A stretch of DNA of 32,021 nucleotides from Candidatus Acidiflorens stordalenmirensis (GTDB lineage Bacteria > Acidobacteriota > Terriglobia > Terriglobales > Acidobacteriaceae). Shown here one piece after another: positions 3,228-15,129 of the stretch. Every line of letters starts with the position of its first letter. The stretch's first letter is position 1. Where the stretch lies: positions 1 to 32,021 of the forward strand of contig PLIC01000246.1 of NCBI GenBank assembly GCA_003139995.1, read 5' to 3'. The notes under the pieces were generated by a model that saw nothing but the letters and a program-made list of their open reading frames with translations, had not been told where the DNA came from and did no database searches. The position numbers were made by a program, and so were the translations under genes.

Positions 3228-3269
3228 TTGAAGAATGCCAGTTCCAGGAAATTAGTTTGGAGGTTGAAG

Positions 3270-5996
3270 ATGCGGGTGGAATTTGCGGTTCTATTCCTTC
3301 TGGTCGCACTTGTGACGAGCGTTTCGGCACAGACTAAAGAGATCGATATTCCTTATGAGCGCTTTGTGCTGGACAACGGGCTGACGGTGATCCTTCATGA
3401 GGATCACAAGGCGCCGATCGTGGCCATTAACATCTGGTACCACGTGGGGTCGAAGAATGAGAAACCGGGGAAGACCGGGTTCGCGCATCTGTTCGAGCAC
3501 CTGATGTTTGGAGGCAGCGAACACGCGCCCGGGCGGTACATCGATGCCATGGAAAGAATTGGCGCGACGGATTTGAACGGCACCACCAATTCCGACCGCA
3601 CAAATTATTTCGAGAATGTCCCCACCTCAGCAGTGGATTTTACGCTGTGGATGGAGTCGGATCGCATGGGGCACCTGCTGGGCTCGCTGGACCAGAAGAC
3701 GCTCGATTTGCAGCGCGGCGTGGTGCAGAACGAGAAACGCCAGGGCGAGAACCAGCCGTACGGGGTGACGGAGCAACTGCTCACGCAAAATACGTATCCG
3801 GCGGGGCACCCGTATTCGTGGACAACCATCGGAGATATGGCGGACCTCGATGCGGCGTCGATGAAGGACGTGCAGGAGTGGTTCAAGACGTATTACGGGC
3901 CGTCGAATGTAGTGCTGGTATTGGCGGGTGACATCGACACGAAGACAGCGCGAGAAAAAGTCGAGAAGTATTTTGGCGACATCCCGGCGGGACCGCCGGT
4001 GGCGCACCAAGAAGTGTGGATCGCAAAGATGACGGGGACGCACCGCCAGGTGGTGCAGGACCGCGTGCCACAAGCGCGAATCTACAAGGTGTGGAACATT
4101 CCGGAGTATGGCAGCGCGGAAGCGGACTATCTGGACATGGTGAGCGATTGCCTGAGTTCGGGGAAATCGTCGCGCTTCTACAAGCGTCTGGTGTATGAGG
4201 ACCAAATCGCGACCGATGCCGCGGCCTTCACCGAGTTGCAGGAAATTGGCGGGCAGTTCATGGTGCGGGCGACAGCGCGGCCGGGACAGAGCATTGCGCA
4301 GGTGGAAAAGGAACTGGATGAAGAACTGGCGCGCTTCGTGAAAAACGGACCGACGCCCGCGGAGATGCAGCGCGTCAAAACGCAATATCAGGCGGAATTC
4401 ATCCGCGGGATCGAGCGGATCGGAGGGTTCGGCGGGAAATCGGACCGGCTGGCGCAAAGCCAGGTGTTTCGCGGAAGTCCGGACGCCTACAAGATCTCGC
4501 TCAAGCGCGTACAACTGGCGACGGCCGAGGATCTGAGAGCGGCGGCGCAGAAGTGGCTTTCGGACGGCGTTTACATCCTCGAAGTGGATCCTTTCCCCGA
4601 GTACAAGACCGCTTCCGCAGGCGCGGATCGCAGCAAAGCGCCGGATACCGGCACGCCGCCGGAGTTGAAGCTGCCGAAGCTGCAGCGGGCGACGCTGTCG
4701 AATGGATTGAAACTAATCCTGGCGGAGCGTCACGAGGTTCCGCTGGTGAATTTCACGCTGGCGGCCGACGCCGGATTCGCTTCCGACGCATCAGCGACGC
4801 CGGGGACTGCCAACCTGGCGATGCGGGTGCTGACCGACGGGACGCGCACGCGCAACACGCTCGAAGTCAGCGACGAACTGGAAGCGCTCGGAGCCACATT
4901 GCGCGGATATTCAAACCTCGATCTCTCGTTCGTTTCCCTTTCCGCGTTGACCTCGAAACTCGACCCGTCGCTCGACCTGTTTGCGGACGTGGTTTTGAAT
5001 CCGTCGTTTCCGGAGACCGAAGTCAAGCGCGAGCAGAAACTGGCGCTCGCCGGAATTGAGCGCGAACAAAACGCGCCCGTGACGCTGGCTTTGCGAGTGT
5101 TGCCGGCGCTGTTGTACGGAGCGGGGCACCCGTACGGAAATCCGCTGACGGGCTCTGGAACAAAGGAAAGCGTGGCCAAACTGACGCGAGAGGACCTCGT
5201 GAAGTTCCATGACACGTGGCTGCGTCCTAACAACTCGACGCTAATCGTAGTCGGCGACACAACGCTGACGGAGGTGACGCCGAAGCTGGAGAAGCTTTTT
5301 GCAGGGTGGAAGGGCGGAAGCGTTCCGGCCAAGAATGTGGAGACCGTTCCGGTTGCGGCGAAGTCCGCCGTGTACCTGATCGACAAACCTGGAGCGCTGC
5401 AATCGGTGATCATTGCGGGAGTGGTGGCGCCGCCTAGGGCGAACCCGCAGGAAATCGCAATCGAAGCGATGAACGACAGTCTGGGCGGCACGTTTGGCTC
5501 GCGGCTGAATACGAATCTGCGGGAAGACAAGCACTGGTCGTACGGAGTGCGCACCCTTCTTCGCGAAGCCCGGGCGCAGCGGCCGTTCTTCGCATTCGCG
5601 CCCGTGCAAACCGACAAGACGAAGGAATCGCTGGTGGAGATGAACAAGGAGTTCCGCGGGATCGTAGGCGACCATCCGATCGGCGCCGACGAGCTCGCAA
5701 AAATTCAAGCGAACGAAACGCTGAAACTCCCAGGGTCTCGCGAGACGCTGGACGCGCTCGGACAGTCAATCGTGGACCTGGTGCAATTCGGCCTCCCAGA
5801 CGATTACTACGATACATACGCAGGAAAAGTCCGCGCGCTCAAGACCAGTGATGTCAACGGAGCCGCAAAAGAAGTGGTGCGTCCGGATAACCTGATTTGG
5901 ATCGTAGTAGGCGATCGCGCGAAGATCGAAGCCGGTGTGCGCGAGCTGGGACTCGGCGAGTTCCGCCTGATGGACGTTGACGGCAAGGTGCAGTAG
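3270..5996 (+). CDS. Secreted two-domain M16 zinc metallopeptidase
   Basis: An M16-family (pitrilysin/processing-peptidase-like) protease of 908 residues, built as two fused M16 halves. The start is the ATG at 3270, because GGAGG lies six bases before it and a signal peptide follows at once (MRVEFAVLFL to about residue 20, ending SVSA). A TTG at 3228 in the same frame is less likely. The N-terminal half has the inverted zinc motif HLFEH at residues 73-77 and the third ligand Glu at about 155 (NEKR). The C-terminal half, from about residue 470, begins with a second LSNGLKLIL strand but has no HxxEH at the matching place (GTANLAMRVLTDG). It is therefore the inactive partner lobe usual in this family. 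A periplasmic role in peptide breakdown is inferred. Its last 40 codons recur as a relic at about 8,902-9,024. Confidence 0.93.
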   Translation: MRVEFAVLFLLVALVTSVSAQTKEIDIPYERFVLDNGLTVILHEDHKAPIVAINIWYHVGSKNEKPGKTGFAHLFEHLMFGGSEHAPGRYIDAMERIGATDLNGTTNSDRTNYFENVPTSAVDFTLWMESDRMGHLLGSLDQKTLDLQRGVVQNEKRQGENQPYGVTEQLLTQNTYPAGHPYSWTTIGDMADLDAASMKDVQEWFKTYYGPSNVVLVLAGDIDTKTAREKVEKYFGDIPAGPPVAHQEVWIAKMTGTHRQVVQDRVPQARIYKVWNIPEYGSAEADYLDMVSDCLSSGKSSRFYKRLVYEDQIATDAAAFTELQEIGGQFMVRATARPGQSIAQVEKELDEELARFVKNGPTPAEMQRVKTQYQAEFIRGIERIGGFGGKSDRLAQSQVFRGSPDAYKISLKRVQLATAEDLRAAAQKWLSDGVYILEVDPFPEYKTASAGADRSKAPDTGTPPELKLPKLQRATLSNGLKLILAERHEVPLVNFTLAADAGFASDASATPGTANLAMRVLTDGTRTRNTLEVSDELEALGATLRGYSNLDLSFVSLSALTSKLDPSLDLFADVVLNPSFPETEVKREQKLALAGIEREQNAPVTLALRVLPALLYGAGHPYGNPLTGSGTKESVAKLTREDLVKFHDTWLRPNNSTLIVVGDTTLTEVTPKLEKLFAGWKGGSVPAKNVETVPVAAKSAVYLIDKPGALQSVIIAGVVAPPRANPQEIAIEAMNDSLGGTFGSRLNTNLREDKHWSYGVRTLLREARAQRPFFAFAPVQTDKTKESLVEMNKEFRGIVGDHPIGADELAKIQANETLKLPGSRETLDALGQSIVDLVQFGLPDDYYDTYAGKVRALKTSDVNGAAKEVVRPDNLIWIVVGDRAKIEAGVRELGLGEFRLMDVDGKVQ

Positions 5997-6020
5997 CGGC
6001 TTGTGGCGGGAAAAGAAATG

Positions 6021-6045
6021 GACCGGCGGCGACAAGCTACCGGTC
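6021..6045. terminator. Weak hairpin between M16 peptidase and lipoprotein genes
   Basis: Six-base arms gaccgg (6021-6026) and ccggtc (6040-6045) lie in the 72-base gap between two convergent genes. There is no T tract and the loop is 13 bases, so a terminator function is only possible. Confidence 0.25.
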
Positions 6046-6068
6046 CGCGATTTGCACTGACGATAACG

Positions 6069-8645
6069 TCACTGGTGAAAGTCAATCAGCTTCGGGGTGT
6101 TACTTTGCGTCCCCAGGGCGACGACCTCCGAGGGAGAGATTATATAGATGATCGCCTGTTGGACGCCACCCTGGGTCACGAGCACTCGCCCACTGGAGTC
6201 GGCGGTGCAGGTACTGCCAGAGCTCGCCGTGCAGTAAGTCCAGCTAATGGCACCTGAGGACGGCCCCGAGCTACTATTCTTGTCCGACGTTCCGCTAAGA
6301 GTGCCGGTTCCATTGGCGTTTACGTAGTCGACCTCCTCGTCCACGTTCGCGCTGACCGGGTATTGACTTCCACCCAGGTAATTCCCGGACAACGAGGCGT
6401 TCGTGAAGCCCCCAGCAGGAGGCGTCGACTGCGGCTCGATCACGCCAAAGTCCACCCCTCCAGGGCTGGTCCCGACCAGAAAAGCCTGGTTCGGGCCAAC
6501 TAGGTAGAAGACCGGTGGGTAGCTGAAGACACCGATCAGCGTCATACGTCCGGTCGTTGGATCCACGCTATAGCTCCCCGACCCGCCCTGCGTGCTTATG
6601 GTTCCGCCGTCGTTCACGTCCATACTCACGGACAACGACCCGGCGCCGTCGGCGGTCGCGAGTCCGGTCTCTGCTGTAGGCGTGGTTCCACCGTCGAGGT
6701 ATTGGTCTTCGATGACGCTGACGCCGTTGAGCGACCCGTCGGTGAACGAACCGCTTTGCCACTGTAATACTTGACCAGCCATTATCATCGGCGGCGGTGA
6801 CGTGTCTTCTGCCATCATCAGCATCTCGGAGGCGCTGACCACGTAGAAGACGAAGTTCATGTTGCCAGTGCTGGAGGTCATGACTGCAGTGGCACGACCA
6901 GTGGACGCGACGCTGAAATCGCTGGAGCTAATCGTTTGCAGTGTCTGAAGCGCTCCGGCGTCGTCAGCATCGTACACTCCAGAAAGGGCGCCGCTGCCAT
7001 TGGAGTTAAATTCACCAGCCATGGCGAAGCTGCCAGCACTCCCGCTGTTATCGGCTCCGACGAGTCCAAAGGCATAGTTACCATTGATCTTGCCGGTCGA
7101 GAACGCGGTGGTGTCCTGCTTGCGCAACAGCCCTGAAGCCAGTTTGCCACTGGTGTCGTAGACAATGATATGGCCGTTGCCGTCGCTGGCATCGATCGCG
7201 GCTTCAAAAGTGCTTTGATTGCCATTGCTCGACTTTGTCAAGTTGATAGTGGCGAGATTGTTCGAGCCTACACAGTACGTCCCGGTGAACGTGTCGGTCT
7301 CGGGCGCCGATTTGGCCTGATCGGCGATGTCCATGCTTGCACTGGTAATGTTTCCCGCTCCATCGGCCACAAAACTGCCTATGGCAGAGGTGGCCGTCGT
7401 TGCACTGCTCCAGCCGTTAAGCATCAGGGCATAGGACCCGGAGAGGAGGGTGTTGTTCGTGCTCGTGCAGGCTTGAGCGGCATTAATCGTGATGCTCAGG
7501 CTGGCATGGGCTGTGGCCGGCGTACTTTCATTATCGGTGACCGTAACCGTAAAGGTTGGGGTGGTTCCGGCCGTGGTCGGCGTTCCCGACAGCACCCCGT
7601 TGTTGGAGTCAATGGAGAGCCAAGACGGATTGCCGCTGACGCTCCATTTGTAGGACGGAACTCCGCCGGTGGCATTCACCGTCGCACTGTAGGCCGTGCC
7701 GACGGTGCCGGACGGCAACGACGTCGTGGTGATGCTCAGAGGCGCAATGCTGATGGTGATACTCAGACCGGCGGATTGGGTGGCGTTCGTCGGCGTCTGC
7801 GAGTCGGTCACGGTCACGGTGAAATTGGACGTGCTGGCGGAGGTCGCGTTCGGCGTGCCCGAGATCACACCCGCGCTGCTCAAGCTCAAACCGGTGGGCA
7901 AACTTCCCGCCGTAAGGCTCCACTTGTAGGACGGAACTCCACCTGTCGCTGTCAGCATTTGGCTGTATGGCGTGCCAATCGTTCCCGCCGGCAAGGGAGA
8001 CATAGTCGTGATGGCCAACGCTGGAGGTGGGTTCACGGTGACGGCGATGGGCTGGCTGCTGGAGGAATTGCCCACTGCATCGGTGACCTTGAAGGTGACC
8101 GAGCCGCTGCCGCCGCCGGTCGGCAGGCCGGTGATAGCTCCCGTGCTGGTGGTCAAACTCAATCCCGGAGGCAGCGTCCCATTGGTGACGCTCCATGTAA
8201 ACGGACTTGTTCCGCCGGACTCGACCAGTGTTTGGCTGTAGGCGGTCCCTGCGATTGCCGCTGCAAGAGAGGTCGTCGTGATGGTGGGCAGAGGGCTGAC
8301 CTTAATCTGCAAGGTGGCCGACTTCGTCGTATCTGTGATCGAAGTCGCCGTCACGGTCGCCGTGAACGCGCTGGTCACAGAGGCGGGGGCGTTGTACGTG
8401 GCCGAGGTCGTGGTTTGGCCGCTCAGTGTGCCGTTACCCGAAACGCCCCACGATACTCCGGCGTTTTTCGCGTCGTTCGTAACCGAAGCGGTGATGGAAA
8501 CAGTTTGAGCTTGATCGATGCCCGTTGTGCCGCTTGGTGTTAACGCAACACCGATGGGATGACTCGAGTTGCTACATCCTGACAGACCCAGCGTAAGAAG
8601 AGTGATCAATCCCGACAGCAACAGCGCAACGGTTACGCGCTTCAC
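6069..8645 (-). CDS. Large surface lipoprotein with putative-Ig repeats
   Basis: An 858-residue exported protein. It has a lipoprotein signal peptide with lipobox LSGC, so Cys24 should become the lipid-modified N-terminus. An Ig-like domain spans about 30-118. Three putative-Ig (He_PIG-type) repeats follow at about 122-205, 210-300 and 303-388, each with the pattern TTTSLP..GT.GTAYS, then GG..SY.WS, then G.ISGTP, then VTVTD. The C-terminal 450 residues contain four looser repeats with the pattern (L/I)(S/N)G.Y...G, then a D/N-rich ADGAGN-type turn. The start is GTG at 8645, preceded by AAGGGGGT. Such proteins are typical of acidobacterial cell surfaces, probably in adhesion or polymer binding. 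No catalytic motif is seen. The gene lies between the intact M16 gene and a relic of a second M16 gene. Confidence 0.85.
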   Translation of the reverse strand: MKRVTVALLLSGLITLLTLGLSGCSNSSHPIGVALTPSGTTGIDQAQTVSITASVTNDAKNAGVSWGVSGNGTLSGQTTTSATYNAPASVTSAFTATVTATSITDTTKSATLQIKVSPLPTITTTSLAAAIAGTAYSQTLVESGGTSPFTWSVTNGTLPPGLSLTTSTGAITGLPTGGGSGSVTFKVTDAVGNSSSSQPIAVTVNPPPALAITTMSPLPAGTIGTPYSQMLTATGGVPSYKWSLTAGSLPTGLSLSSAGVISGTPNATSASTSNFTVTVTDSQTPTNATQSAGLSITISIAPLSITTTSLPSGTVGTAYSATVNATGGVPSYKWSVSGNPSWLSIDSNNGVLSGTPTTAGTTPTFTVTVTDNESTPATAHASLSITINAAQACTSTNNTLLSGSYALMLNGWSSATTATSAIGSFVADGAGNITSASMDIADQAKSAPETDTFTGTYCVGSNNLATINLTKSSNGNQSTFEAAIDASDGNGHIIVYDTSGKLASGLLRKQDTTAFSTGKINGNYAFGLVGADNSGSAGSFAMAGEFNSNGSGALSGVYDADDAGALQTLQTISSSDFSVASTGRATAVMTSSTGNMNFVFYVVSASEMLMMAEDTSPPPMIMAGQVLQWQSGSFTDGSLNGVSVIEDQYLDGGTTPTAETGLATADGAGSLSVSMDVNDGGTISTQGGSGSYSVDPTTGRMTLIGVFSYPPVFYLVGPNQAFLVGTSPGGVDFGVIEPQSTPPAGGFTNASLSGNYLGGSQYPVSANVDEEVDYVNANGTGTLSGTSDKNSSSGPSSGAISWTYCTASSGSTCTADSSGRVLVTQGGVQQAIIYIISPSEVVALGTQSNTPKLIDFHQ

Positions 8646-8662
8646 AATACCCCCTTTGACAC

Positions 8663-8686
8663 ACGGGAGTTCAGAATTTCTCCCGT
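8663..8686 (-). promoter_or_regulatory. Hairpin in the lipoprotein leader
   Basis: A perfect 7-bp inverted repeat (acgggag at 8663-8669, ctcccgt at 8680-8686) lies 18 bases upstream of the GTG start and just before its ribosome-binding site. It would form a stem in the 5' untranslated RNA. A regulatory effect is possible but unproven. Confidence 0.3.
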
Positions 8687-8901
8687 TTCTTCCCTGGAGG
8701 CATCATGTTGCAGCGATACGGTTACCTCAAGTTACGTAAGTACTGACTTCCGCGTACAATTCTTGTCCGCACCTCGATCGTGAACCCGCGAAATGCGGCG
8801 CTGGATCGGCATTCCGTTTCCTCCGTTCGCCTTTCTATGCCCCGGCTGCTGGCGGATAGAAGCGGCGGACCCATCCCATTACTATCGTTTGCCGGAAAAA
8901 A

Positions 8902-9024
8902 AGTGCGCGCCCGGATACCCTGATCAGGATCATTGTGGGCGATTGCGCGAAGATCGAACCCGGTGTGCAAGAACTGGGACTCGGCGAGTTCCGTCTGATG
9001 GACACCGACGGAAAAGTGCAGTAG
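8902..9024 (+). pseudogene. 3' relic of a second M16 peptidase gene
   Basis: The plus-strand sequence ending at the TAG at 9022-9024 reads, in one frame, as a close copy of the last 40 residues of the M16 peptidase encoded at 3270-5996. The relic has RPDTLIRIIVGDCAKIE followed by LGLGEFRLMD. The intact gene has RPDNLIWIVVGDRAKIE and LGLGEFRLMD. The DNA is also clearly alignable without gaps from about 8,902 onward. No start codon or upstream M16 sequence remains. It therefore looks like the tail of a former tandem paralogue whose body has been lost, with the lipoprotein gene now occupying the space between. It is not expected to be expressed. Confidence 0.85.
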
Positions 9025-9035
9025 GAGCTCGATGT

Positions 9036-9078
9036 TGGTGGCGGCGGTAGGACTCGAACCTACGGACTACGGCTTACG
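9036..9078 (-). repeat. tRNA 3'-end remnant, possible attachment-site half
   Basis: Read on the minus strand this ends in a full T arm (GTAGG, TTCGAGT, CCTAC), then CGCCGCC, A and CCA, exactly like a tRNA 3' end. It matches the start of the intact tRNA-Met at 14893 in 37 of 43 aligned positions and has the same orientation. One of the differences is a compensated base pair in the T stem. No convincing D arm or 5' acceptor strand precedes it, so it is not a complete tRNA gene. It fits the displaced 3' end left by integration of an element into a tRNA gene. Confidence 0.65.
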
Positions 9079-9083
9079 TTTGC

Positions 9084-10247
9084 CTACTGGTTCCTCTTAC
9101 CACGAACCACCGATCCGATTTTGCCCACGAATTGGAATGTCCGAAAGAGGCGCTGTTTCAGCAAAAGGTTCTGCGCCACTTGCTTGACTCGAGAGCCGTG
9201 AAAGTCCACGAGGTTGAGCTCGGCGAGGAATGCGAAGAGTTGATGATCTTCCGCGCCCGGCACTCCGATTGAGGTGCCGCGAAAAATGGGATTGCTCCGA
9301 AACATAAGTTGAGTAACTTCGAACAGGAACGCGTTGGGATTCGTGTTAGTTTTTCCAGTGTAATCGAAGTAGGGCCCGTCTTGGACGCGGACGCCGGGTT
9401 GAATCAAGCCCTCGATTACGATCTCAGACTGTGCGGGGACCTCGAGGTCCACCGTCTGGCATTGGACAAGCGGAACAGCTTCCTGCAGGAGACCTCCGGC
9501 TAAGTCGTATTCGTCCATGCCATCGGGGTATGCGGCGGCGGCCGCCATGATCACTGCCTCGCTGACGCCGATGGCGACCGCCATGGGCAAGGGTAAAGAT
9601 CGGCCCGCTTTTTCCGCCTTGGCGACATGCCGCCCCAGGTGGCTCCCTGGAGAAGCGCTAACCGTCGCCTGCTTTGGACCTAACAGTTGCATCCGATACA
9701 CGCCTACATTTCGAGAGCCTGTTTCCGGATCTTTGGTTACGTTGATGTGCCAGGTGCCGATATATCGGCCGCTATCGTAGTTACTCCACTGAGGAACGGG
9801 CAGATTCAGAAGGCTGACGCCGCTCGCCTGAACAATGTTCTCCAGTACCGGGCCAGTCTCGACGAGTCTCGGTTTGACGGGCGTGGCCATCCTCTTCCTG
9901 GCTTCTGTTATGAGAGTCTTCCGGGTGGTTCCTAACTCCAGGCCGAGAGCAAGCGCGATCGAGGTGGTATCGCACAATCCGTTCGTAAACACGCGTTGAT
10001 CTGGATAATCCTTGACGTTCTCGAAGAGGAGCGATGTCCGGCTCTCTCTGGTCATTCTCCCGATATCGACTTTCCAATCGATTGTTTCTCTGACGCGCAC
10101 GAGGCGGCCAGCGTCCGCGAGAACTTGAATGAAATGGCGCAGATCTCTTGTTTTCCCGGACAACCCCTCCTGCGAAGGCGAAAGCAAAGCAGCACCGGGA
10201 CGGGGATCGTTCTTCGAGAAAGTATCTTTCACTATTCTGCCGTTCAT
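9084..10247 (-). CDS. UbiD-family decarboxylase, short C-terminus
   Basis: This belongs to the prenylated-FMN-dependent UbiD family, which adds or removes carboxyl groups on aromatic, heteroaromatic or unsaturated acids. The best start is the ATG at 10247, preceded by AAGAAAGA and 44 bases after the hemB-like stop. It gives 387 residues. Visible family features are NVGVYRMQ at 180-187, where Asn180 and Arg185 match the metal-binding Asn and catalytic Arg. H203 follows, then VDLEVPAQSEIVIEG at 266-280, and DGPYFDYTG at 290-298. In that last loop the usual Glu...Glu/Asp acid pair is Asp290 and Asp295. Most UbiD proteins are about 450-500 residues, so roughly 60-110 residues are missing. The last codons run into the tRNA-like remnant, which suggests truncation, though a naturally short subgroup is possible. 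The substrate cannot be told from sequence. Confidence 0.8.
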   Translation of the reverse strand: MNGRIVKDTFSKNDPRPGAALLSPSQEGLSGKTRDLRHFIQVLADAGRLVRVRETIDWKVDIGRMTRESRTSLLFENVKDYPDQRVFTNGLCDTTSIALALGLELGTTRKTLITEARKRMATPVKPRLVETGPVLENIVQASGVSLLNLPVPQWSNYDSGRYIGTWHINVTKDPETGSRNVGVYRMQLLGPKQATVSASPGSHLGRHVAKAEKAGRSLPLPMAVAIGVSEAVIMAAAAAYPDGMDEYDLAGGLLQEAVPLVQCQTVDLEVPAQSEIVIEGLIQPGVRVQDGPYFDYTGKTNTNPNAFLFEVTQLMFRSNPIFRGTSIGVPGAEDHQLFAFLAELNLVDFHGSRVKQVAQNLLLKQRLFRTFQFVGKIGSVVRGKRNQ

Positions 10248-10291
10248 TCTTTCTTGAGGACGTCGCGCCCAGAATGCGTACAGCCTGAGCG

Positions 10292-11272
10292 TTATTTGCC
10301 GCGAAGCAGCTCTGCCGCCCGTTTCGCGAAATAAGTGATGATGATGTCCGCGCCCGCGCGTTTCATGCAAGTCAGCGCTTCCAGCATGATCGCGTCTCTA
10401 TCCAAACGCCCGAGCCGCGCCGCCGCATCGATCATTGCGTACTCTCCGCTCACGTCATATACGGCGAGTGGCATTTGGAATTCTTGCTTGGCGCGATACA
10501 CGATGTCCAGGTAAAAAAGCGCGGGCTTGACCATAACGATGTCCGCGCCTTCCTCGATGTCCAGGGCAATCTCGCGCATGGCCTCGTTGGAATTGGAGAA
10601 ATCCATTTGATGGGTTTGCTTGTTACCGAACTTCAGCGTCGAGTGTGTTCCTTCCTTAAAGAAGGGGTCATAAAGCTTTGAGGCGAACTTTGCCGCGTAC
10701 GCCATAATTGGCAGGTTGTGGAATCCGCGCGAATCCAACGCCTGTCTCATCGTATGAATCTGCCCGTCCAGCATGGCAGCTGGCGCAACTATGTCGCTGC
10801 CGGCCTCGGCATGGGAGAGAGTGATTTTTGCGATTAGCTCCAGCGAGGAGTCGTTATCGAGATAGCCGTTGCGCATAAGTCCGCAGTGCCCACTCGTCGT
10901 GTATTCGCAAGGACACACATCTGTAACGACAAGCATCCCGGGAACTTTGCTCTTCAAAGCTCTCACGGCTTCCTGCACGATTCCGTTCGGGGAGTAAGAG
11001 CCAGACGCTTGTTCATCCTTAGTCTCAGGCACGCCGAACAGAAGAACCGCGGGAATACCCAGGTCGCGTACTGCGACAGCTTCCTCGATCAAGCAGTCGA
11101 TCGACAAATGATAGTTGCCTGGAAGCGCTGCGATCTCCTCCTTAACCGCGCTGCCGGGGACCACGAAAAGGGGCAAAATGAAGCTGCTGGCGGAAAGCTT
11201 ATTTTCGCGGACGAGCCCTCGAATCGCTTCATTCTGCCGGAGCCTTCTAAGTCTTTGTGTTGGGAATCCCAT
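10292..11272 (-). CDS. HemB-like porphobilinogen synthase, divergent
   Basis: A HemB-family enzyme of 326 residues. The classical reaction condenses two 5-aminolevulinate molecules into porphobilinogen. The ATG at 11272 is chosen because AAAGGA lies six bases before it and the upstream gene ends 11 bases away. Both Schiff-base lysines are present: Lys195 (YAAKFAS) and Lys249 (MVKPA). So is the cysteine metal site DVCPCEY...GHCG (Cys120, 122, 130). Several substrate-pocket positions differ from standard HemB. DPFFKE (203-208) replaces GPFR(D/E), GNKQTHQMDF (216-225) replaces G(D/N)(R/K)xxYQMDP, and YDVSGEY replaces YQVSGEY. It sits between a PaaK-like ligase and a UbiD decarboxylase, which is not a heme-gene setting. 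It may be the organism's only hemB or a paralogue with a changed substrate; the neighbours favour the second. Confidence 0.88.
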   Translation of the reverse strand: MGFPTQRLRRLRQNEAIRGLVRENKLSASSFILPLFVVPGSAVKEEIAALPGNYHLSIDCLIEEAVAVRDLGIPAVLLFGVPETKDEQASGSYSPNGIVQEAVRALKSKVPGMLVVTDVCPCEYTTSGHCGLMRNGYLDNDSSLELIAKITLSHAEAGSDIVAPAAMLDGQIHTMRQALDSRGFHNLPIMAYAAKFASKLYDPFFKEGTHSTLKFGNKQTHQMDFSNSNEAMREIALDIEEGADIVMVKPALFYLDIVYRAKQEFQMPLAVYDVSGEYAMIDAAARLGRLDRDAIMLEALTCMKRAGADIIITYFAKRAAELLRGK

Positions 11273-11283
11273 GGTAGTTCCTT

Positions 11284-12909
11284 TCACTTCGCCGCATACT
11301 CGCTATGCTGGTTAGTTGGTTTCCGCAACTGGAAGGGCAGGATCTTGCCGCTTGCTGTGCAGACTGGATAATTGCGCCTGACTTGCACCATGCTGGACTG
11401 GCGCCACATCTCGACTCCAGACTGCGCCCATGATTCCGGACTGGCTTCACCACGCTTGAGCAGCATCATGAACTTGTCCAGAACCTCGGCTTCGTTTACC
11501 TTTCCCACTCGCGGGCTGACCAACAATTGCAGGTGGGTGAATCCCTTCGAGTCTTCCTCTTCGATCAACTGGTAATCTGTGCTTTTCCCGCCGAAGGTCT
11601 CAGGCAGCTCGTTTTCGATAATTCGAACGAAGTCCGTGTCGACAAACGTCACTCCTTCGCCGGTCAGCTTTTCATAGCTGCGGATATTGCCGAGACAGGT
11701 GTCGAAACCGAGCTCTCCGAATTCGCAGTTGCAGGCCGCCGAATCGAGACCGCCAAAATCGCCCATGCCAACGTTCAGAAGCAATTTGGGCGATTCATAG
11801 AGCAGGCTGGTGAAAAGGTAGGAATCCAGGCGGATATCGAAGTTCGGAACCACGTGCTCGTGAGTGATGATCGCAGTGGTGTCTTTGTAAAGGTGACAAT
11901 GATCGCTTTGCGAATGGGCTTGGTTGCAGCCCGCAGCGATTACGCCGGCTTCCGATATTCCGTAGACCGGAATCGCAGCGGCGCCAGTGGATTCGATTTC
12001 TCTCTTCTTGTGTGGCGTAAGAGGCTCGCCGGTTACTAGAAACTTGGCGCCCTTAAGATTCAGGTTCGCCTCTGCCGCGGCGATACACACCCTTACCGCC
12101 GAAGCCGCAAATGTGTAAATGACGCAGTTCGGGTGCTCGCTGAGGGCCTCCGAAGCCCATTGAGCGATGCGGTGGGCATCATTGAGTCCAGCGTACTCCG
12201 GCTCGGCCAAGGGACAACCATAGAGTCGATGGACCGCGAAAATAGTCTTCGTGCCCCACCTCTTTTCCCAGTTAACCCGAACCCGGTCTTCCGCAACCTG
12301 CGAGAACCACCGCTCGACCGGGTTCCCGATATGCGCGAATCGCAGGCTGGAGTTGATCCCCGGCGCTCCCGGGAACACCGGGAACCAATTTGCGATCGGA
12401 GCCGTTAGGCAGCCATGAAGATTAAGCAAAAACGCATCGTAGAGAGACCTTTGGTGCAGGTAATCAAAGTCGATCCGGATTCTCGTGCCAGCGCTTCGAG
12501 TCGCCCCGCTCCTCACTTCATACACGAAAGACAGATAGGGGTTATCGAACATTCCCTCTGCGCAGACAAACGTGGTCCCATTGCGTCGAACCGGCACCTT
12601 TCCCTTGAACTCGTCCACCGTGAAATAGACCCCTTCGAGTTCCAGAGCGCGCAGGCTGGCCTCCAGGCCGTCCTTTGAAACCCAGGACTTGAGATCGCTG
12701 AAGGCGATTCGCTTGGCGGCGAGCAGTGGCAAGTAAGGGCTGCGCGAATAGCCGAAAATGCTCCGCTCCGCAAGGCGCAAGAAATTGCCTTCGCGCTCGG
12801 CGATTCGTTTCTGGAGCAACAATCGCGCTAAGGCGATCGCCTCCCCGGGTTCCATTCGCGATTTCGCGAATTTCCGCAGGCCGTCGATGAATCGATAGTA
12901 TTTGCGCAA
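11284..12909 (-). CDS. PaaK-like adenylate-forming enzyme
   Basis: A 541-residue protein resembling the phenylacetate-CoA ligase branch of the ANL (acyl-adenylate) superfamily. These enzymes activate a carboxylic acid with ATP and usually pass it to CoA. The phosphate-binding loop is at about 133-142 (RSGATRSAGT). FLVTGEPLTPHKKREIE lies at 290-306, and YGISEAG at 316-322 matches the family's Y-G-x-(S/T)-E motif. A cysteine pair (CNCEFGELGF, about 393-402) follows and resembles the metal-binding cysteines of PaaK relatives. The C-terminal 100 residues form the usual small lobe but without an obvious catalytic Lys motif. The gene is 11 bases upstream of the hemB-like start, so the two are probably co-translated. 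The acid activated is unknown. Confidence 0.75.
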   Translation of the reverse strand: MRKYYRFIDGLRKFAKSRMEPGEAIALARLLLQKRIAEREGNFLRLAERSIFGYSRSPYLPLLAAKRIAFSDLKSWVSKDGLEASLRALELEGVYFTVDEFKGKVPVRRNGTTFVCAEGMFDNPYLSFVYEVRSGATRSAGTRIRIDFDYLHQRSLYDAFLLNLHGCLTAPIANWFPVFPGAPGINSSLRFAHIGNPVERWFSQVAEDRVRVNWEKRWGTKTIFAVHRLYGCPLAEPEYAGLNDAHRIAQWASEALSEHPNCVIYTFAASAVRVCIAAAEANLNLKGAKFLVTGEPLTPHKKREIESTGAAAIPVYGISEAGVIAAGCNQAHSQSDHCHLYKDTTAIITHEHVVPNFDIRLDSYLFTSLLYESPKLLLNVGMGDFGGLDSAACNCEFGELGFDTCLGNIRSYEKLTGEGVTFVDTDFVRIIENELPETFGGKSTDYQLIEEEDSKGFTHLQLLVSPRVGKVNEAEVLDKFMMLLKRGEASPESWAQSGVEMWRQSSMVQVRRNYPVCTASGKILPFQLRKPTNQHSEYAAK

Positions 12910-13444
12910 CCGTCAACCTCGTAACGAACGCGCCAGGATCTTTTCCTCTGCAGTCTCTGTTGGCTTGCGAAAAGCCGGTGTTGCTCAATCGGAATATAGC
13001 GGGGAATCGCCAAGCTGGGGATGGCGGAGGGAACGATCTCGCGCCGATACTCGACTGATAGATTATCTGAAATTCCGGGAAGAAAGTCAACGTCCTCAAA
13101 ACCGCGAAGTCTTGCGCCTGCGGACAAGATTGAGAGGCTGCCGCTGATGAGTAAGTTACCGATGTGCAGGCACCTCCGTTCCTGTTGCCGGTGCTCTTTG
13201 GGGGCCAGCCGGCTGACCCGGTCAGGGTCACTTTGTCGTTTGCAGAGCGGTTGGATGGGATTCCCGATAGTCAGCGTGGGGGTCTGGGTGGCCCGGTATC
13301 CGTGCGGGTTGGCATCAAGCTCGGCGAACAGCCGGTGCCGTCTCCGCGGTCGAAATACTCCCACTAGACATTGCGATGGACGCACACGCAGCCAGTGCGG
13401 CCGGCAGTTACGTCGGGCATCGTCCCTTTTCTCGCGCCCCGCCC
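12910..13444. other. 535-base gap inside the minus-strand cluster, no gene supported
   Basis: Several frames are open on both strands, as expected in GC-rich DNA, but none gives a recognisable protein. I looked for the small zinc-ribbon OB-fold partner that often accompanies SCP-x thiolases and found no cysteine-ribbon pattern. A plus-strand frame at 13164-13367 has protein-like composition, with no supported start signal. The stretch may be a decayed gene. Confidence 0.4.
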
Positions 13445-14650
13445 TTACGTCGTGGCCCTCAGCACTGTACAAACGGAGGCGCAGATGGGTCCGCCTATAT
13501 TGAACGTGGCGGCAACATTGGCATCCTTAACCTGCAACGGTTGTGGGACCTTGCCAAGCAATTGCCATGCGCACCATCCGAGCATCGCGACGCCGCTCGC
13601 GCCAATGGGATGGCCTTTCGCAATAAGTCCGCCGGAGGTATTGATGCCACATTCGCCACCGACCCTGGCTTTTCCGTCGACCCAATATTGCGCGCCTTTG
13701 CCGTATTCGGCTTTTCCTAAGACCTCCGTGCCGATGGCGCCCATTACCGTGAAGCAATCGTGGATCTCGGCGACCTTTACATCGTCCGGCTTGACCCCCG
13801 CCATTCGGTAAGCGCTTTGCATCGCTTTGATCGCACCCGCGGGACGAAGCACATCGCGGCCGGACTTTCTGAGAGGGTCGGTCGCCTGCGCGTATCCGGC
13901 AATCTCGACGCAGTCTCGCTTGTCGACGCCGAGCTTTGCCAACCCTTCCTCAGTAGCGAGGATGAGCGCGGCATACCCGTCGCTGATCTGCGAACAATCG
14001 TAGGTCTTGAGCGGCAGCCCTTCGACAATGTAGCGATTGATGCCTTCGATCTGCATCGCCTGTTCGACCGTAAGTTCGACATTGCGCATCTGCGCGTAGG
14101 GATTGTGACGGGCGTTTGCGTACTCTGTGACGGCGATCTGTGCCAGGTACTCTTCAGGGATGCCGTGCACTTTGAGATAGCACTCCATTACCTCCGCAAA
14201 GAGGTGGGGGAAGATATATACCTTGCCTTCCCGTTCGTCGGGATGCGAGAAATAGCCGAGGGCCTGGCCGATGAGCTTTCCATCCATCTTGCCTTCGGCG
14301 TCGCGCATTTTTTCGTAGCCGATCGCAATCCCAGTATCGCCCCATCCGATTTGCAGTTTCTGGATAACTGAGAGAATTGCCTGGCCACCGGAGGCGCACG
14401 CATTTTCGACCGATTCGATCGGCTTACCGGCGAGTCCCGGAATATCCGCCACGAGGCCCGCGAGCAGCCCTTGCTGGTTGAGGGAGATATTGCAAACGGC
14501 GCCCACAGAGCCGACATCGAGCGCGGAGGGTTCCACTTTGATCTCCGCACAGGTCTCTGTAACGGCGCGTTGAAGAATCTCGGGTACAGTCATGCCCATG
14601 AGTTTTCCGAATTTCGATTGATGATAGGTGGTGATGTAAATGCGTTTCAT
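13445..14650 (-). CDS. SCP-x-type thiolase / acetyl-CoA acetyltransferase
   Basis: A 401-residue thiolase-fold enzyme, closest in style to the SCP-x/acetyl-CoA acetyltransferase group that makes or cleaves 3-ketoacyl-CoA. The start is the ATG at 14650, with AGAGGTG nearby upstream. The nucleophile motif VENACASGGQA puts Cys85 in the active site. EIHDCFTVMG at 295-304 supplies His298, and GGLIAKGHPIGASG at 340-353 supplies His347. NIGG at 384-387 is the C-terminal glycine motif. The first gene of this operon was an acyl-CoA synthetase, of which only the tail remains 10 bases upstream. Many SCP-x-like thiolases act on steroid or branched substrates with a zinc-ribbon partner, but none is visible here. 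Substrate unknown. Confidence 0.88.
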   Translation of the reverse strand: MKRIYITTYHQSKFGKLMGMTVPEILQRAVTETCAEIKVEPSALDVGSVGAVCNISLNQQGLLAGLVADIPGLAGKPIESVENACASGGQAILSVIQKLQIGWGDTGIAIGYEKMRDAEGKMDGKLIGQALGYFSHPDEREGKVYIFPHLFAEVMECYLKVHGIPEEYLAQIAVTEYANARHNPYAQMRNVELTVEQAMQIEGINRYIVEGLPLKTYDCSQISDGYAALILATEEGLAKLGVDKRDCVEIAGYAQATDPLRKSGRDVLRPAGAIKAMQSAYRMAGVKPDDVKVAEIHDCFTVMGAIGTEVLGKAEYGKGAQYWVDGKARVGGECGINTSGGLIAKGHPIGASGVAMLGWCAWQLLGKVPQPLQVKDANVAATFNIGGPICASVCTVLRATT

Positions 14651-14660
14651 AAAACACCTC

Positions 14661-14804
14661 TTAGGATGAGTTGCGCCCCGGCGTAACAGTATCGCTTCCA
14701 CCGGCGACGTCAGACTTGAGAACCCTTAGTCGGTCCTGGAGTTCGAGTTTCAGAACCTTACCATAGGCGTTGCGGGGCAATGCTTCTATAGCGATGATTT
14801 GCCT
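14661..14804 (-). pseudogene. C-terminal relic of an AMP-forming acyl-CoA synthetase
   Basis: Read on the minus strand, 47 codons end at a TAA 10 bases before the thiolase start. They contain IIAIEALPRNAYGKVLKLEL, the A10 core of AMP-forming acyl-CoA synthetases (consensus LPRtatGKvlK), which carries the catalytic lysine. An in-frame TGA lies immediately upstream at 14805-14807, and no further synthetase sequence can be read before the tRNA. The gene has lost everything but its tail. The tight spacing shows it was once co-transcribed with the thiolase, which suits activation of an acid before or after thiolytic steps. Confidence 0.8.
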
Positions 14805-14892
14805 TCATTACAATTTCATTACAGTCACCCGATATTGGAGCTGCCCAAACTCCGGGGAACATCTCTAGCTTATTGAAAATGGATCTTAAATT

Positions 14893-14969
14893 TGGTGGCG
14901 GCGGTTGGACTCGAACCAACGACCTACGGATTATGAGACCGTCGCTCTAACCACCTGAGCTACACCGCC
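14893..14969 (-). tRNA. tRNA-Met (CAT), elongator type
   Basis: A complete 77-base cloverleaf on the minus strand including an encoded CCA. The acceptor stem GGCGGTG pairs with CGCCGCC (one G-T pair), and the discriminator is A. The D arm is GCTC/GAGC. The anticodon loop is CTCATAA with CAT at 14933-14935, and the T arm is GTTGG/CCAAC with loop TTCGAGT. The anticodon stem has one T-T mismatch next to the loop. It lacks the three G-C pairs in the anticodon stem that mark initiator tRNA. A lysidine-modified tRNA-Ile with the same anticodon cannot be fully excluded. It marks the left end of the putative island. Confidence 0.9.
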
Positions 14970-15129
14970 AATCCGGAAATACGCGGAAGGAAACCAGGGA
15001 CAGCCCGGAAATGGGCACAGAATCCGCAGACGCGGGTGGACGCGTCCCTGACTTATTCTAAAAGTGCATGGAATGGAGTGTCAATGGAATGTCGTGTCAA
15101 ACCGACCGTCTTCATGCGAAACTGGGCGC

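Follow-up and report, generated by a model that had tools for sequence, protein, structure and literature searches.

Why should forty codons from the end of an M16 peptidase gene lie by themselves, 3 kb from an intact gene that possesses the same end, in the same orientation, and stop 11 bases short of a remnant resembling a tRNA? This arrangement occurs in the 32,021-nucleotide stretch of acidobacterial DNA analysed here (hereafter the window). The initial annotation, made from the letters alone, described the fragment as the orphan tail of a second M16 gene, recording an old tandem duplication or a recombination event, and proposed that two breakpoints fall together within a very short distance. 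Comparison with related genomes leads to a different account of how the fragment came to be isolated. Coordinates of the features discussed are collected in Table 1.

Table 1. Features around the isolated M16 gene end (positions in the window; G numbers denote genomes of the genus).
Feature	Position	Strand	Remarks
Intact M16 peptidase gene	3228..5996	+	922 aa (putative start codon); 86-97% identity to the G001 gene
Left junction	5997..6008	+	First bases of the old M16/tRNA spacer, then start of the Ig cassette; by eye
Ig cassette, 2.8 kb	6009..8830	-	Gene with its own flanks, homologous as a unit to the G006 cassette
Ig-domain gene	6069-8645	-	858 aa, three He_PIG stretches; only long gene in 5997-8890
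Stretch without M16 homology between Ig cassette and relic	8831..8890	.	Short
Putative displaced M16 3' end (relic)	8891..9024	+	TAG at end
Spacer of the ancestral M16/tRNA-Met junction	9025..9035	+	11 bases; equal length in G001 and G011
Apparent 3' half of the original tRNA-Met gene, broken off in the anticodon loop	9036..9076	-	41 bases; T-stem as in the G001 gene
Island between tRNA fragment and intact tRNA-Met, 5.8 kb	9077..14892	.
UbiD-like gene	9084-10370	-
HemB (delta-aminolevulinic acid dehydratase) gene, probably a second copy	10292-11287	-
ORF, 541 aa, unknown	11284-12909	-	No Pfam or NCBIfam match
ORF, 214 aa, unknown	12828-13472	-	No Pfam or NCBIfam match
Thiolase	13445-14701	-
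tRNA flank, 87 bases	14806-14892		Common to G014
Intact tRNA-Met (CAT)	14893..14969	-	Taken as the island's regenerated target

The relic and the end of the M16 gene

On translation, 8902-9024 (+) yields 40 codons followed by a TAG, and its ungapped alignment with 5874-5996 contains 22 differences in 123 bases (82% DNA identity; 6/5/11 by codon position). The resemblance to the M16 end is thereby borne out, and the coordinates agree with the distance of 3 kb, the shared orientation and the gap of 11 bases (9025-9035) before the tRNA-like remnant. The protein similarity had been called near-identical, which overstates it, as only 31 of the 40 residues are the same when counted from both translations. 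The initial annotation also advised alignment with 5,860-5,996 and with the M16 genes of relatives; this confirmed the homology, which begins at 8891 rather than 8902, one base having been lost in the relic near its start, and it revealed no relative with a second M16 gene. Overall, 8891-9024 (the relic) shares 84% DNA identity with the last 135 bases of the intact gene (5862-5996). The 245 bases before 8891 show no M16 similarity by sensitive local alignment, their score of 13 being equalled or exceeded by 84 of 300 shuffles.

A DNA search of the source genome with a 261-base query spanning the relic (E <= 0.001) returned three matches: the query's own locus, the tRNA-Met gene at 14893 and, with an E value of 5e-34, the end of the M16 gene. 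It thus disclosed no further copy of the relic elsewhere in that genome. Plasmid and phage collections contained no match to 8830-9142. Three stretches of viral contigs fit a pattern, and none of the three encodes a relative of the M16 end. With only three matches in its own genome and none in plasmids or phages, chance resemblance and a dispersed repeat are excluded for the relic; the short mobile repeat that the initial annotation had named as a competing account is rejected because no copies occur at unrelated sites in these collections. The source assembly is a single draft genome of 313 contigs, in which a doubled gene end might arise by misassembly. We find this exceedingly improbable here, since the two tails differ at 18% of their bases and are therefore not one sequence assembled twice, and since another draft genome (G011) has a similar tRNA-fragment anatomy beside its M16 gene.

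The relic might instead be the rest of a complete tandem M16 duplicate, the first 2.6 kb of which were replaced by the Ig cassette. Its place on the tRNA side is formally compatible with such a history, which we nevertheless judge highly improbable, for homology ends abruptly at 8891 and two copies were found in none of the nine relatives with a DNA match. These counts come from a genus search with the last 297 bases of the M16 gene, covering 24 genomes (10 with a match and 14 without): the source genome gave two matches, the gene and the relic, and each of the nine relatives gave one, without a second M16 tail in the sequence compared. Nor does the source genome hold another M16 gene of the same subfamily, its other M16 proteins being only 24-30% identical in longer matches. 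The notion of a second M16 gene was abandoned on these grounds, and the broader view of the relic as an M16 3' end that records a recombination or duplication event is supported.

An ancestral M16/tRNA-Met junction

The closest relative, G001 (99% complete), preserves the arrangement from which the relic can be understood. Exactly 11 bases lie between its M16 stop codon and an intact tRNA-Met gene on the opposite strand, beyond which the sequence matches the window from 14893 onward. The window segment 8891-9076 aligns in one piece to this junction (187 columns, 86.6%). In G011, 11 bases likewise separate M16 from a 43-base tRNA 3' fragment that stops in the anticodon loop, with an intact tRNA-Met gene ~8.6 kb further on. 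The same spacing in both relatives and the one-piece alignment argue that the relic and the tRNA fragment were inherited together and that no two breakpoints meet between them, contrary to what was first proposed; the join is unbroken. As judged from these alignments, relic, 11-base spacer and 41-base tRNA 3' half form one inherited unit, the ancestral M16/tRNA-Met junction. The true breakpoints lie at ~8890/8891 and ~9076/9077.

The other seven relatives with an M16 match were compared as well. In G021, tRNA-Met follows at ~1.6 kb with a LigB-family gene in between, and in G005 it follows at ~0.6 kb in a copy that includes unknown bases. A worn tRNA-like stretch can be discerned by eye behind M16 in G019, where BLAST for the tRNA was negative. 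The sequence compared from G004, G013 and G017 contains no tRNA-Met behind M16 (scan of 20 of 80 loci), and G009 gave no tRNA match in a BLAST comparison against the window only.

The tRNA fragment differs from the G001 gene at 3 of 41 bases, and the following 36 bases differ at 27 positions, which places the end of tRNA similarity in the anticodon loop. Against the window's own intact tRNA-Met, similarity stops at 9076, the counterpart of 14933, at the anticodon; integrases are known to cross over in the anticodon loop of tRNA genes. The G011 fragment ends no more than 2 bases from the same place. The intact tRNA-Met gene of the window differs from that of G001 solely by one swapped T-stem pair, whereas the fragment keeps the G001 pair. 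When tRNA-Met copies in the genus were listed by BLAST, the swapped version was present in 2 of the 17 full-length copies listed, the window's own included.

We also considered 9035-9111 as a complete, divergent tRNA and rejected it: the predicted fold lacks the cloverleaf shape, ARAGORN makes no call, and past base 41 the sequence departs from the G001 gene to the extent given above. The 77 bases of 9035-9111 (-) do fold better than shuffled sequences (z -3.5), perhaps because the old acceptor end met a chance partner. A search of 5800-9400 against Rfam returned nothing at E up to 1, as the tRNA fragment is too short or too worn to be recognized.

A probable island at tRNA-Met

The segment bounded by the fragment and the complete tRNA-Met gene has an unoccupied counterpart in G001, which matches the island only inside HemB, along one stretch at 67% (with 12 of 32 first-look candidates scored). 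Parts of the island recur elsewhere in the genus, the thiolase part in G002, G006, G007, G008 and G011, and the UbiD/HemB pair in G004. Another contig of the source genome (C304) has a short match to the HemB region (78% over 81 bases), and the island HemB is probably a second copy in that genome. The two ORFs without assigned families overlap and are perhaps not both genes. There is a sharp border at 14805/14806: the thiolase matches of G002 and G006 stop at 14803-14805, and 14806-14970, comprising flank and tRNA, is common to G014. Because this border separates different patterns of sharing, the island itself appears to be a mosaic. Truncation of the UbiD-like gene by the tRNA-side junction was considered and left no clear sign, the G004 relative being short too (366 aa); the last UbiD residues, beyond ~9142, have no match to the G004 protein.

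In the Islander database description (PMC4383910), tRNA-targeted islands are recognized with a displaced 3' tDNA fragment, and one attachment class is centred on the anticodon. The window resembles these islands in having a complete tRNA at one end, a 3' fragment in the same orientation at the other that breaks off in the anticodon loop, foreign genes enclosed by the two, and an empty site in a close relative. Unlike them, the 5.8-kb block lacks a tyrosine-integrase gene and has metabolic content. The tyrosine-integrase domain (PF00589) has 33 matches in the source genome and none on the window's contig (C170, six frames), nor was it present in the island ORFs scanned; in 13 genomes of the genus, among the matches listed, none lies near a tRNA-Met copy. 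Segment 9077-14892 therefore combines an intact tRNA, a same-orientation fragment, an anticodon-loop breakpoint and an empty relative site with no integrase inside. Its anatomy is that of a tRNA-targeted genomic island, but with the integrase missing it would at best be a member of the class that has decayed. A further departure from Islander islands is that the fragment here still bears the end of the neighbouring protein gene, because another cassette came between it and that gene.

The tRNA-Met gene itself looks like a recurrent insertion site in this acidobacterial genus. Fragments of tRNA-Met cut in or near the anticodon loop are also present in G002, G013, G014, G015 and G021, some of them at contig ends. 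Across the genus loci L065-L093 and at 14806-14970, both 3' and 5' fragments of tRNA-Met(CAT) with cuts in or near that loop were observed in several genomes. By eye, the flanks of complete tRNA-Met copies fall into look-alike groups, with 3' sides like CAAGTTATTGAAGGAAT and 5' sides like ACGGTGTGTTTAC..AAGTTACGG; these groups may be the attachment arms of related elements.

The Ig cassette and the second M16 end

On the other side of the relic, the intact M16 gene is followed by about six bases of the same spacer, as judged by eye (CGGCTT in the window, CGGGTT in G001 and CGGTTT in G011). From ~6007 to ~8828 the window is homologous to a locus of G006 (73%) that lies in different surroundings, on a contig without an M16 match. 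Since this homology elsewhere takes in the flanks, the Ig gene behaves as a cassette with flanks of its own. The alignments place its entry just behind the M16 stop codon, with the last 134 M16 bases on both its sides. Among nine Ig-cassette loci, the window included, such a flanking direct repeat was seen in the window alone (the cassette end at L101 was guessed and some flanks are shorter than 3 kb), so no insertion rule is visible. Relatives of the cassette Ig gene are clustered on single contigs of G002, G003 and G012 (L100, L102, L105 and L109), either as several genes or as long multi-domain genes.

The two tails have diverged in different ways. Comparison of present tail, relic and G001 revealed 15 changes confined to the relic, 9 confined to the present tail and 2 confined to G001; the relic thus shares the base of G001 at the 9 sites where the present tail stands apart, and the base of the present tail at the 2 where G001 does. 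Sorted by codon position, changes unique to the relic number 5/4/6 (n=15), and those unique to the present tail number 2/1/6 (n=9), a third-position bias. The even spread in the relic, together with its lost base, reveals drift without coding constraint. Relic-only divergence is 15/134 (JC 0.12), and four-fold sites of the M16 gene differ from G001 at 75 of 459 (JC 0.184 for both lineages together, ~0.09 each if halved). From these sequence distances the relic would have been cut off roughly when the window species and G001 parted, a coarse estimate from 15 changes. Maximum likelihood on the 135-base tails places the relic beside G001 with 69% bootstrap support; the AU test does not reject the other placements (p 0.13).

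We consider it probable that the resident M16 gene originally ended in the relic, which remains on its original spacer and tRNA-Met 3' half and was isolated by two insertions. In one, the island would have entered the tRNA-Met gene at the anticodon loop, presumably by means of an integrase; the old tRNA 3' half would have stayed in place, and a complete tRNA-Met (14893-14969) would mark the far end of the island, the usual outcome for tRNA-targeted islands. In the other, the Ig cassette would have inserted just behind M16 together with a second copy of the last ~140 M16 bases, which would now complete the working gene; the old end would have been shoved 3 kb downstream, where it drifted free of coding constraint. 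The most likely route for the cassette would be one-sided homologous recombination involving a close relative's DNA, in which M16 homology served as the anchor and an illegitimate join formed at 8890/8891. The anatomy of 5997-9024 fits a new end joined at homology and an old end left behind an illegitimate join. The sequences themselves show the ancestral junction, the empty G001 site, the tRNA fragment with its spacing and the lost constraint; we infer the island's integrase, the cassette's route and the order of the two insertions.

A serious rival to one-sided recombination is that the last ~140 M16 bases were copied locally, on the window's own chromosome, when the cassette joined, either by fill-in of a wide staggered break or by unequal exchange. 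This account is possible, and several features suit it. The left junction retains those ~6 bases of the same spacer, and no donor is needed. Indeed, the present tail bears no positive trace of a foreign donor, being no more diverged from G001 than the gene at large: when the M16 gene is divided into twenty 135-base bins, identity to G001 ranges from 86 to 97%, with 92% in the last bin (the present tail), and the tail has 6 window-side versus 2 G001-side changes, an excess not clearly distinct from the 106 versus 78 in the remainder. Furthermore, the relic-only distance roughly equals what unconstrained sequence should have accumulated after the G001 split, given the four-fold value for both lineages. 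Against local copying, the relic has none of the special changes of the present tail. As the relic equals G001 at those 9 sites, a local duplication would have to date almost exactly to the G001 split.

Some islands integrate into the 3' ends of protein-coding genes and regenerate them, with a short identical core. The cassette could be such an element, with an attachment site that duplicates the M16 end, so that its entry restores the gene and displaces the old end in the manner of integrases at tRNA genes and certain protein genes; a regenerated end, an insert and a displaced old end in the same orientation are the expected anatomy. We regard such site-specific integration as unlikely. The contig has no tyrosine-integrase domain in six frames (the tyrosine family being the one searched), and the sole long gene of 5997-8890 encodes the Ig-domain protein. 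The related cassette in G006 is not flanked by an M16 end, and none of the nine M16-bearing relatives has a second M16 tail in the sequence compared. Although the window shares with these islands a regenerated gene end and a displaced old one, it has a diverged repeat of ~134 bases in place of a short identical core, and no tyrosine integrase.

One-sided recombination has a counterpart in type VI secretion clusters. Homology-facilitated illegitimate recombination is proposed for orphan 3' gene ends in T6SS effector/immunity arrays of Vibrio (PMC5361080; see also PMC3240628), and C-terminal displacement in Rhs genes is cited in PMC5361080 as a comparable case. As in those arrays, a conserved gene part would act as anchor, a new downstream module would enter, and the old 3' end would be pushed behind it. 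The window differs from those cases in that old and new ends encode one and the same domain, without any evident functional change, and in that the incoming gene, on the opposite strand, encodes an unrelated Ig-domain protein; the route here is our inference.

A more general reading would make the M16 3' end a preferred entry point, at which integrase-less cassettes come in, supply a copy of the gene end by which the protease stays intact, and leave the old end behind, so that M16 and tRNA-Met together form a two-sided acquisition site in these acidobacteria; we hold this to be very improbable. Our literature search returned no paper on tRNA-Met genomic islands or on M16 peptidase pseudogenes in Acidobacteria. 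Most likely, the relic is a fossil of ordinary gene-island turnover and not of a lost second protease gene. It is an ordinary case of a well-known kind, yet a tidy and datable example, and it changes no general picture. Its interest is that an orphan fragment becomes readable history, an ancestral gene/tRNA junction fossilised between two later insertions, and that it directs attention to tRNA-Met(CAT) as a site where islands recur in a little-studied acidobacterial group.
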